Part shown: positions 40,369 through 42,773 of the stretch, one piece after another | Layout of the letters: every line of letters begins with the position of its first letter | How positions within the stretch are numbered: the first letter of the stretch is position 1 | Source of the DNA: Pacificibacter marinus | GTDB lineage: Bacteria > Pseudomonadota > Alphaproteobacteria > Rhodobacterales > Rhodobacteraceae | Assembly (NCBI RefSeq): GCF_018860665.1 | Contig: NZ_JAHKPK010000040.1 | Coordinates: 106,384 to 149,156 of the forward strand | Reading direction: 5' to 3' | Length of the DNA: 42,773 nucleotides | Notes under the pieces: model-generated | What the model saw: the letters and a program-made list of their open reading frames with translations, nothing else | What the model was told of the DNA's origin: nothing | The model's database searches: none | Position numbers and translations under genes: made by a program

Positions 40369-40646
40369 ATGCAGCATTATCTGTACCCAACTAAATTCAA
40401 ACGTGAAATGGCCCGCCAGATGAGCTCAGGAAAGCTCAGCATTGGTGACGTAGAAAAAGGCTGTCGGGTATCAAATAGGTCGGCCTATAAGTGGAGGCAA
40501 GTTTTCGGGGGGGGGGGCGCGGCCAAAGAAAAACGCCTAAAAAAAACAGCCACCACAAAAGGTATTCACTGAGATCATGGTCGACGACGAGAAGCCCAAA
40601 GTTGCGACACCCTTTGAAAAAATCACCTTGAAGCGTTGCGAGATAG
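40369..40646 (+). pseudogene. Transposase (HTH, orfA-like) fragment interrupted by mobile elements
   Basis: The frame from 40369 reads YPTKFKREMARQMSSGKLSI then VEKGCRVSNRSAYKWRQVF, a helix-turn-helix of transposase OrfA type. It meets a run of 11 G at 40507-40517 and then leaves the apparent frame; the continuing coding pattern (TEIMVDDEKPKVATPFEKIT, LKRCEIV) is in another frame up to the IS481-like end at 40647. So the gene is frameshifted and truncated by the insertion. Family uncertain (IS66-like or IS3-like OrfA). Confidence 0.55.
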
Positions 40647-40751
40647 TGTAGATATGTAGGGACTCTCGGGACACTTCCTGTAAATTACCCAATTTTGGGT
40701 GGAGGAAGTTTTTATGACGAACGAAGAACGTGACATTCAACGCAAGCTGAG
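40647..40751 (+). repeat. Left 105-bp inverted repeat (IS481-like 5' end)
   Basis: Carries the terminal repeat, the ribosome site GGAGG and the first residues (MTNEERDIQRKL) of a transposase gene, cut off after 105 bases. Followed by 26 unrelated bases and then the IS3 end at 40778. One mismatch to the right copy, at 40659. Confidence 0.8.
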
Positions 40752-40971
40752 GCCTCGCCATCCCCCCGAACTTCTTATGGACCTGTCGCGCTTTAGTGCC
40801 GCCCCAAGTGCTCGTTTAAGCCACCTTGCGTTCGAAAGCGACAGGGCTTTTCCAGCCCAATGCTGAGTGGCGACGGCGTGGATTTACGAGGCCGTTGATG
40901 TATTCGAAGATCGCCACCTCAGCCTTGCGTCGTGTCTCCCAAGGATGCCGCCAGATCAGCTCAGCCTTGAT

Positions 40972-41012
40972 CACTGCCTAGCAGGGTATTGCGCAGCAAT
41001 GTCCCGAGAAGG
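40972..41012 (+). repeat. 41-bp hairpin element, copy A
   Basis: Begins CACTGCCTA, core GCAGGGTATTGC-GCA-GCAATGTCCC, ends GAGAAGG. Deleting exactly 41 bases rejoins the minus-strand IS3 frame as FKT-IKAELIW. Opposite orientation to the transposase. Confidence 0.8.
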
Positions 41013-41284
41013 GGTTTTGAAGAACGTCTCAACAGCCGCGTTATCGTAGCAATTGCCCTTGCCAGACATTGATACCTTAAACCCGTGCTGGCGCAGGATG
41101 CATCGATAATCATGAGAACAGTATTGCGACCCGCGATCCGTGTGGTGGATGCAGCCTCTGGGCGGTGTTCTGAACGCAATGGCCATTTACAACGCACGGA
41201 TCGCCAAGTCCCGTTTCATCAGATTGCTGACCGCCCAGCCAATGACACGGCGTGAATGCAGGTCCAGAAGCGAGACCTTGTCCG

Positions 41285-41305
41285 CCATTGGTCCGAGGAC
41301 AATGG
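41285..41305. repeat. Possible further hairpin insertion (copy J)
   Basis: CCATTGGTCC pairs with GGACAATGG (one bulged base) around a 2-base loop at a point where the OrfB frame is disrupted between YLA and DLHSRR. The insert there would be about 37 bases, and it lacks the GCA entry motif of the others, so membership is doubtful. Confidence 0.4.
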
Positions 41306-41362
41306 TCGAGCGCAAGATAAAGCCAACCCTCCTGGGTCCAAACATAGCTGATGTCACCAGCC

Positions 41363-41403
41363 TGTTATCTGTCAGGGTATTGCGCAGCAATGTCCCGAGA
41401 AGA
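41363..41403 (+). repeat. 41-bp hairpin element, copy B
   Basis: Begins TGTTATCTG, same core as copy A, ends GAGAAGA. Removing 41 bases restores NQKW-AGDISYVW of OrfB. First and last bases (T...A) differ from the C...G of other copies but remain complementary. Confidence 0.8.
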
Positions 41404-41538
41404 CATTTCTGGTTCGGCGCGTTGGCGGTGAAGTCACGATCCAGCAGGTTTGGCGCAATGTTGAACTTGTGATTACTGTCGGTCGTGGCCTTATGTTTGC
41501 GGGTTCGCACACCGGATATGCCATTCTGGCCCAGTGAC

Positions 41539-41579
41539 GAGGGTTCCGCAAATGATCTGGGGGATCATTTGCCCGAGGG
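41539..41579 (+). repeat. Hairpin element with different stem, copy G
   Basis: Perfect 10-bp arms GCAAATGATC / GATCATTTGC around TGGGG (41548-41572), entered by nine bases plus GCA and followed by CCGAGGG, as in the 41-bp family. Removing 41 bases leaves OrfB in frame between RRVGR and QNGISGVRTRKHK. Confidence 0.65.
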
Positions 41580-41649
41580 ACACGGCCAACACGACGATGA
41601 CCCACATTCAAACCAATCTCCTTCAACTCTACGGTCATACGGGGGCGGC

Positions 41650-41690
41650 CACTCTCGGGACATTGCTACGCAATACCCTGACGTGCAGTG
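41650..41690 (-). repeat. 41-bp hairpin element, copy C
   Basis: Read on the minus strand: begins CACTGCACG, core TCAGGGTATTGC-GTA-GCAATGTCCC, ends GAGAGTG, so terminal CACT and AGTG are complementary. Removing it restores LGSY-GRPRMTVEL of OrfB. Confidence 0.82.
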
Positions 41691-41858
41691 CATAGCTGCC
41701 CAAGCTCAGGCGCGATTGTTCTTTAATGTGTGCCAACGTCACCATGTCAGACCGCTGTCTGCGGCTGGCAGGTCGGTTGCGATGCGCCCGCAAACCGCGC
41801 GGACTAACAGCCATAGCCCGACACATCAGTTCAATGGAAAATGCAGATCGGTGTTCTT

Positions 41859-41897
41859 CCCCTCTCATCGAAACTACGTTTCAATTGCCGGGCAGTG
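41859..41897 (-). repeat. Hairpin element with different stem, copy H
   Basis: Minus strand: begins CACTGCCCG-GCA, arms ATTGAAAC / GTTTCGAT around GTA, ends GAGAGGGG. Outer sequences match copies C/D while the stem is replaced by another complementary pair. Located between RFKFI and EHRSAFS of OrfB. Exact length 38-41 bases. Confidence 0.65.
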
Positions 41898-41935
41898 GAT
41901 AAACTTAAACCTCACGGCTTTTGGCTCGCAAAGAT

Positions 41936-41976
41936 CCCTCTCGGGACATTGCTACGCAATGCCCTGCCGGTCGACG
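41936..41976 (-). repeat. 41-bp hairpin element, copy D
   Basis: Minus strand: begins CGTCGACCG, core GCAGGGCATTGC-GTA-GCAATGTCCC, ends GAGAGGG. Removing 41 bases gives KKVTV-IFASQKP just after the frameshift site of the IS3 transposase. Confidence 0.82.
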
Positions 41977-42004
41977 CACCGTGACTTTTTTAGAATTTCC
42001 CTCT

Positions 42005-42049
42005 TTCACCGGGCAAGCCGTCCCCCGGACGGTTTGCATATCCGGATCA
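42005..42049. repeat. Hairpin element with different stem, copy I
   Basis: GCAAGCCGTCC / GGACGGTTTGC (11-bp arms, one wobble, 42013-42037) around CCC, inserted in OrfA between ENRIHK and REILKK; about 45 bases, in frame but bringing a stop codon. Enters with GCA after nine bases like the others; its tail differs (CATATCCGGA). Confidence 0.55.
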
Positions 42050-42181
42050 AGTCCTTGTGAATGCGGTTCTCACGTCGAAGCCGGTCATTCTCTTGGGCGA
42101 GGCTTAAATCCTCTTTTGACACGACATCCGTGTCTCGATGCGCCGTAATCCATTTGTTCAATGTCGACATGCCGACGCCCA

Positions 42182-42222
42182 CCTTCTCGGGACATTGCTG
42201 CGCAATACCCTGCCAGGCAATG
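42182..42222 (-). repeat. 41-bp hairpin element, copy E
   Basis: Minus strand: begins CATTGCCTG, core GCAGGGTATTGC-GCA-GCAATGTCCC, ends GAGAAGG. Removing 41 bases restores QVADD-LGVGMSTLNK of OrfA. Confidence 0.82.
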
Positions 42223-42310
42223 GATCATCAGCCACCTGCTTACGCGTCAGCCCACTGGTCAGCGCGATCCGCACTGCATCTTGGCGGAATTCGTCTGTCC
42301 GTTTCAGTCC

Positions 42311-42351
42311 CACTCTCGGGATCATGCTGCGCATAACCCTGCCGTGCCGTG
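42311..42351 (-). repeat. 41-bp hairpin element, copy F
   Basis: Minus strand: begins CACGGCACG, core GCAGGGTTATGC-GCA-GCATGATCCC, ends GAGAGTG. Inserted directly after the OrfA start codon (ATG-GGACTGAAACGG). Its inner stem has a T-A pair changed to A-T on both arms relative to the other copies. Confidence 0.82.
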
Positions 42352-42507
42352 CATAGTCCGTCTCTTTTGTTACAGTAAATGCTATCAAAGGAGCGGCATC
42401 AAACCGTGACAGGTCCATCCCGCCATCTATAAAAGCTGGATCTCCCAATCCCAAAATACTGGCATGCTTTGAGTACATTGACGATCTTCTCAGCATGCTG
42501 GAGCACT

Positions 42508-42612
42508 CTCAGCTTGCGTTGAATGTCACGTTCTTCGTTCGTCATAAAAACTTCCTCCACCCAAAATTGGGTAATTTACAGGAAGTGTCCCGAGAGTCCG
42601 TACATATCTACA
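42508..42612 (-). repeat. Right 105-bp inverted repeat (IS481-like 5' end)
   Basis: Inverted copy of 40647-40751. Its transposase frame (minus strand from 42555) continues through ACQYFGIGRSSFYRWRDG, a helix-turn-helix region, until it is interrupted by the IS3 end at 42417. The outer edge directly abuts the recombinase fragment. Confidence 0.8.
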
Positions 42613-42773
42613 GGAAAGGCGCAGGCACATGGGGGCGCTCTAAAATCATGGGCAACTGGAAACGCGGCACCGGTATTCTCAACAACGAGCTCTATATCGG
42701 CAATTTGGTTTGGGATCGCCAACACTTCATCAAAGACCCAGAACAGCAAAAACGCCAAGCTCGCCTGAACCCG
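42612..42773 (+). pseudogene. Serine recombinase middle fragment at window edge
   Basis: An open frame of 54 codons reads RSKIMGNWKRGTGILNNELY then IGNLVWDRQHFIKDPE and QQKRQARLNP, the recombinase domain of large serine recombinases. There is no start: the 5' part is cut off by the IS481-like repeat at 42612. The frame stays open to the window end. The 14.6-15.1 kb remnant is a C-terminal part of the same family, but the two cannot be shown to be one gene. Confidence 0.75.

Follow-up and report, generated by a model that had tools for sequence, protein, structure and literature searches.

Near the end of contig 7 in a draft genome of Pacificibacter marinus (65 contigs), within a stretch of 42,773 nucleotides here called the window, a degenerate copy of an IS3-family insertion sequence is interrupted by six near-identical segments of 41 nt. 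Are these segments a normal part of a transposase gene or a mobile element in their own right, and if the latter, what moves them and why do they lie inside an insertion sequence? All six are present exactly where the preliminary description had placed them, two on the forward and four on the reverse strand. That description had noticed no further copies in the 42.8 kb, and a covariance model (R1), trained on 45 sequences out of 60 chosen for diversity from 154 distinct element sequences, indeed returns only these six in the window; a seventh, 38-nt member of the family had nonetheless been overlooked. The features of the region are as follows.

About 40777..42418, reverse strand: host IS3-family copy, degenerate, with OrfA and OrfB; its ends form a 29-nt inverted repeat, 83% complementary.
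40972..41012, forward strand: element copy 1, 41 nt, antisense to the IS3 genes (R1 E-value 2.6e-13); empty homologue L158.
About 41269..41311, reverse strand: insert of a second hairpin family in the window IS3, core CCATTGTNCTCGNACCAATGGCG, ends approximate.
41363..41403, forward strand: element copy 2, 41 nt, antisense (R1 E-value 4.3e-11); site empty in L122 and L140.
41548..41572, no strand assigned: perfect hairpin GCAAATGATC-TGGGG-GATCATTTGC inside a further insert; the four aligned relatives are without that insert.
41650..41690, reverse strand: element copy 3, 41 nt, sense (R1 E-value 1.2e-12); L122 empty.
41860..41897, reverse strand: seventh family member, 38 nt, with the variant apical stem ATTGAAAC-GTA-GTTTCGAT, not found by R1; L140 is without the insert.
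41936..41976, reverse strand: element copy 4, 41 nt, sense (R1 E-value 1.7e-12); absent there in all four aligned relatives.
42008..42052, reverse strand: hairpin-bearing block of about 45 nt, ends approximate, common to both copies in genome G010; L122 and L140 are without it.
42182..42222, reverse strand: element copy 5, 41 nt, sense (R1 E-value 2.6e-14); L117 and L140 empty.
42311..42351, reverse strand: element copy 6, 41 nt, with compensating pair changes in the stem (R1 E-value 8.6e-11); L122 and L140 empty.

Alignment to insert-free homologues confirms the empty sites of the window inserts, and these homologues, together with insert sizes that are not multiples of three, uphold the earlier claim that each insertion breaks the IS3 reading frame. 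OrfB carries an in-frame stop as well, so this IS3 copy is dead for other reasons too. The 28-nt core CAGGGYATTGCGYAGCAATGTCCCGAGA is matched five times in the window with at most three mismatches, and 0 of 100 dinucleotide shuffles match it. In Pfam, pieces of copies related to the window IS3 match rve_2 and HTH_Tnp_1. A genome of the same genus (G010) holds two related IS3 copies that share insert sites with the window IS3: four same-site family inserts and the block of about 45 nt are common to the window and each G010 copy. The shared block shows very few differences, though the synonymous sites around it are near saturation.

Other repeats accompany the element in this region. On either side of the IS3 copy (40647-40751 and 42508-42612) lies a 105-nt piece from the start of another insertion sequence, the two pieces being inverted relative to each other; their end, GGACTCTCGGGACA, is similar over about 11 nt to the 3' half of the element when that half is reverse-complemented. 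The second hairpin family has eight matches in the same genome with at most three mismatches, six of them exact, and 24 in the collected loci with at most four mismatches, some of these probably due to chance; it occurs in the same insertion sequences (window, L128, L153, L160, L161, L186 and others), and its stem, TTGNNC/GNNCAA, seems to covary. A third hairpin type with a G-rich loop, for example AAAACAGTCCGGGGGACTGTTTT, occupies various positions in IS3 copies (L018, L207; in the window, 41548-41572 and about 42008-42052).

The anatomy of the element emerges from 194 collected copies, two of which proved spurious and were later dropped, leaving 192. A sequence logo of the 194 delimits a conserved block of 41 nt with a bias to YYRTC on its left and a weak bias to G on its right; 41 nt is the usual length, and lengths of about 34-45 nt are seen in the family. 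One strand folds into a 5-nt tail (CACTG), a 3-bp basal helix (CCC/GGG), an internal loop (GGCA/GAGA) and an apical hairpin, which in the main subfamily has 9 bp, a 3-nt loop and a bulged T identical in 45 of 45 aligned sequences. The base of the fold, CACTGCCCGGCAG...(C/T)GAGAGGG, is constant, while the sequence of the apical hairpin varies and is replaced in other subfamilies. Pairing is preserved through this variation: 96.9% of cells are paired, both sides have changed in 11 of the 12 stem pairs, and double-change cells number 64 against 10.6 in shuffles, with 0 of 500 shuffles as high and at most 13 in slid frames. With loose patterns, a 5' base followed by a 3' base was matched 212 times in the collected loci, 162 of them at the standard spacing and a few of the longest looking like chance; the 5' pattern occurred without the 3' pattern in 238 further places, and the 40 examined were family members with changed ends together with chance matches. 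No longer element with the same ends was noticed in the collected loci, where 40 of the 238 half-matches were read, and a longer autonomous parent was set aside on that ground. A known Rfam family was likewise set aside, since no curated model matched at E ≤ 5 over 40400-42773. At one locus (L018:1064-1079) only CACTGCCCGGCAGGGG is left of the element site, a remnant that looks like the foot of a hairpin otherwise lost.

The element is neither confined to the window nor to one genome. R1 finds 28 matches in the genome at E ≤ 0.1, the six in the window and 22 outside it; at E ≤ 0.001, 49 of 120 Rhodobacteraceae genomes have at least one match, and the richest has 34. A pattern allowing at most two mismatches picked out 13 of 148 genomes: each of the 13 belongs to the same family, represented by 91 genomes, and the 57 genomes from other families gave no match. 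In the named genome collection at least 119 stretches carry the element; among the stretches listed, most bear titles of Rhodobacteraceae, Rhodobacterales or genera recognised as such, the exceptions being two Alphaproteobacteria MAGs, one Rhodospirillaceae MAG, one Maritalea and two Enemella, and the source of the two Enemella-titled stretches is, by apparent match, a genome of the same family (G021). Two viral contigs also bear it. The preliminary description had staked its reading on other copies in the genome and on homologues with empty sites. Both exist, and the covariance-model search it had proposed for further copies and for filled and empty pairs yielded them in number.

Among the collected loci, 83 of the 194 copies have an uninterrupted homologue, and the fitted inserts measure 41 nt in 64 cases, 40 nt in 16 and 42 nt in three. 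Inserts of 40 and of 41 nt are both found, and since three divides neither length, they break the frame of the host. A test of ORF length after removal of 41 nt gave 56, 40 and 37 copies favouring the three phases, spurious frames being long in every phase. In the alignments listed, some with poor fits, there is no target duplication beyond a placement ambiguity of 1-3 nt, in agreement with what had first been seen in the window. To the left, the target is biased to YYRTC^, a bias rather than an absolute rule, and since the same motif is present in empty sites it is part of the target. Insertion 3' of a short target without duplication is also what IS200/IS605-derived elements display.

Exact same-site insertions recur in diverged hosts. 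For same-site pairs with flank identity below 85%, 38 of 109 have elements that differ at 0-2 of 41 positions, too similar for the age of their flanks and in line with the same site having been hit more than once; the other 71 differ more. Same-site pairs share the basal-stem type in 68% of cases against 38% in other pairs, an excess that shared descent or regional pools would also give. Second copies within a locus were collected with a looser pattern, an ascertainment that affects counts of local hopping. Upstream of a gene in L109 that reads as IS110-type, the same site is hit in four records (also L049, L065 and L102), and their elements differ at 0 or 1 of 41 positions in the three pairs compared. 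In the IS3 remnants of L008, L013 and L035, the sequence to the left of one insert runs straight into that to the right of a different one, as would happen if recombination between repeats had removed the intervening DNA.

The copies lie almost solely inside genes of insertion sequences, of many families and in both orientations. One ORF fragment per copy was picked by codon usage, some in the wrong frame, and 188 of the 192 were scanned, four duplicates or overlaps having been dropped. Their Pfam matches (all 22 families in one listing and the best 25 of 33 in the other, given as families rather than as numbers of matching members) are transposase or mobile-element families together with a few generic HTH domains; by name, the hosts include IS3-type integrase cores, IS4/IS5, IS66, IS21 (IstB), IS110, Mutator, Tn3 and Y2 transposases. 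As a control, 106 random fragments taken from the same loci at a distance of 2 kb or more matched 103 families, the best 25 of which include a single transposase family with one member. Individual scans of 40 copies out of a random 60 gave mobile-element families for 22, a weak generic HTH for one and nothing for 17; no metabolic family appeared among these 40. A census of five genomes of 1-6 contigs, with flanks classified by reading, placed 25 of 28 R1 matches in insertion sequences; 19 loci were read, the other nine being repeats of the same G151 insertion sequences, and L230, L233 and L251 (G151) were assigned by weaker resemblance. Of the three exceptions, L228 adjoins a putative antitoxin gene, and both L231 and L236 have flanks that read like a tRNA gene on the opposite strand. 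Several fragments next to copies in the window's own genome either had no match or matched just a neighbouring gene of the host, such as GerE, YjbF or HTH_17, and in another genome one copy (L048) lies beside an ABC transporter gene, outside any recognisable insertion sequence.

This bias could reflect survival and carriage rather than targeting. The hairpin may insert at random and persist mainly in insertion sequences, which are dispensable and carry it to new genomes; we give this explanation somewhat less than an even chance. It accords with the presence of several filled copies of one insertion sequence in a single genome (G054, G151), with the neutral drift of host genes after insertion described below, and with insertion in either orientation into hosts of many families. 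On this view copies should also be numerous in dispensable DNA between genes, yet the five-genome census found 25 of 28 in insertion sequences, and a preference for particular sites is suggested by the exact same-site insertions in diverged hosts. That so few copies are intergenic argues for a degree of targeting. Survival and carriage is the cautious answer to the bias, true targeting the bold one. In its boldest form, the element would be a dedicated anti-insertion-sequence element, its insertion machinery seeking out the transposase genes of unrelated families, often hitting conserved codons, and so putting these genes out of action, a proposal we hold to be unlikely. If it were true, a genome would accumulate disarmed insertion sequences, and the element would be a bacterial counterpart, in effect and not in mechanism, to fungal repeat-induced silencing.

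What moves the hairpin? At this length it is too short to carry a gene and must therefore be moved in trans, as the preliminary description had supposed; filled and empty pairs abound. We consider it likely that the segments are a family of non-autonomous mobile hairpins, moved in trans and inserted without duplication into the genes of insertion sequences. In the mechanism we propose, an enzyme supplied in trans would recognise the base of the fold, and the element would be inserted 3' of a YYRTC-like target through a single-stranded intermediate, with independent insertions repeated at the same sites in diverged hosts. That the enzyme recognises the fold on the folded strand seems rather probable. 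A single-stranded intermediate has about an even chance; such a route is plausible because the hairpin covaries, the YYRTC bias is one-sided and no duplication is seen.

The single-strand route had been suggested before, in company with a HUH/RAYT transposase, and it is this second part that is not supported. According to such an explanation, the hairpin would be an element of REP/RAYT or IS200/IS605 type moved in trans by a Y1 HUH transposase. The hairpin itself, the one-sided target bias, the lack of visible duplication and the compensating stem changes would suit it, and Y1 genes do exist in carriers G004, G026, G063, G074 and G083. Against it, no match to Y1_Tnp (PF01797) turned up in the window's own genome, in 11 of 13 carriers, or in 8 of the 12 carriers of a further set that partly coincides with the first, and the high-copy genomes G086 and G151 are among those with no match; moreover, the logo shows no GTAG or CGTC tag in the element, and the copies are not extragenic. 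We regard a Y1-driven element as unlikely, bearing in mind that a Y1 (TnpA) relative could have acted in earlier hosts. A dependence on reverse transcriptase, of the group II intron or retron type, was set aside, since PF00078, found in 6 of 12 carriers, was not found in the window's own genome and 5 others.

The consequences of insertion for the host gene were read from the pattern of later substitutions. In filled pairs of low divergence, some of which share a sequence and are not independent, 68 of 123 changes over 23 segments fall in the fullest codon phase, where a uniform distribution gives 60-73 and purifying selection 78-96. These 123, of 125 changes, come from all pairs except L048/L081, which is not in an insertion sequence; the other two lie in inserts. 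A smaller selection (89 of 146 mismatches, without sparse pairs, end pieces, L220/L221 and L048/L081) gave the same answer. In same-site pairs of high divergence, 665 of 1010 changes over 28 flanks, among them diverged flanks that the smaller selection omits, fall in the fullest phase, the third position. Even phases in close pairs and a third-position excess in diverged ones indicate that most of the divergence predates insertion and that sites were hit repeatedly; the neutral drift of the host gene after insertion indicates that the insert kills it. From these substitution patterns, the host gene appears to be inactivated.

A different outcome would follow if the insert were removed at the level of expression, spliced from the RNA or bypassed by ribosomes in the manner of byps, so that the transposase stayed functional and the filled elements were old. 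The window IS3 and one of the G010 copies (G010a), compared with inserts left out over 314 codons without gaps (one stretch at the G010a OrfA end is poorly aligned), give a dN/dS of 0.10 and a dS of about 1.3; with the shared insert sites, this value alone would fit old, tolerated inserts, and the several filled copies within one genome point the same way. The dS to an empty IS3 homologue is, however, as large (1.27), the close filled pairs drift neutrally, and the 38 of 109 diverged same-site pairs carry elements too similar to match the age of their flanks, the other 71 differing more. Orientation also speaks against removal: antisense copies are common (100 against 80 sense of 180; 68 and 54 with clear margins), and T-G pairs on the element strand occur at similar rates in the two orientations (16 of 68 antisense, 16 of 54 sense, P 0.54), leaving no sign of selection on the host mRNA strand. 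Finally, G054 contains three identical copies of a 919-nt IS5-type element, each with two inserts and, as read from the translation, with a stop replacing a tryptophan codon; being broken by both inserts and stop, these copies were most simply moved in trans. On this indirect evidence, the near-uniform codon phases and frequent antisense copies among it, we judge a host protein still made across the insert to be very unlikely. That the segments belong to the ordinary IS3 transposase, or are repeats by chance or artefacts of assembly, is next to impossible, for although the window ends at a contig end, there are empty homologues, other host families, 49 of 120 genomes with the element and covariation in its stem.

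The preferred reading, a family of mobile hairpins moved in trans, concerns an element spread over a large bacterial family and located almost only inside other mobile elements, of which it would be a parasite or a host-serving brake. At about 41 nt it would be, to our knowledge, among the smallest mobile elements known, and no earlier description was found among the open-access papers searched by sequence strings and topics. It explains at least some broken transposase genes in carrier genomes that would otherwise pass for plain frameshifts, and the 83 copies with natural filled and empty pairs are a resource for finding the enzyme.

Several known systems invite comparison. Small dispersed repeats of cyanobacteria are very small structured repeats inferred to be mobile; we know of neither a specificity for insertion sequences nor a plan of constant base and variable apex among them. 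Mitochondrial GC clusters, double-hairpin elements and byps are mobile hairpins of organelles, 30-60 nt long and some of them inside genes; translation skips over byps, but the genes that host the present element decay. Rickettsia palindromic elements also sit inside coding sequence and keep the frame, in contrast to a hairpin of 41, 40 or 42 nt that breaks it. The element differs from a MITE in that no target duplication is seen and its ends are joined solely by the 3-bp basal helix, in place of the terminal inverted repeats of a parent insertion sequence. Single-strand transposition of the IS200/IS605 kind offers a likeness in precise insertion, one-sided bias and absence of duplication.

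The element also resembles REP/REPIN sequences with their RAYT partners. REPs are palindromic repeats of 20-40 nt with heterogeneous stems, non-autonomous and without coding capacity; they are extragenic, and a GTAG class is tied to RAYT genes (PMC3116915, PMC3733652). The element shares the small palindrome, the heterogeneous stem, the lack of autonomy and the absence of coding capacity, and it differs in lying inside insertion-sequence genes and in that no Y1 gene was found in most carriers tested. A second class, the CGTC-tagged REPs, is mostly alphaproteobacterial, with heterogeneous stems and no dedicated transposase known; its members are described there as having a CGTC tag, stems of 8-9 bp that start with AT pairs, and a CCA tail (PMC3733652). 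By that description they stand apart from the element, with its CCC/GGG base, its GGCA/GAGA loop and a YRTC that belongs to the target. The element thus resembles a mobile palindrome of the REP class while departing from it in enzyme, location and end tag (GTAG or CGTC), and we therefore class it more broadly with the small mobile palindromes.
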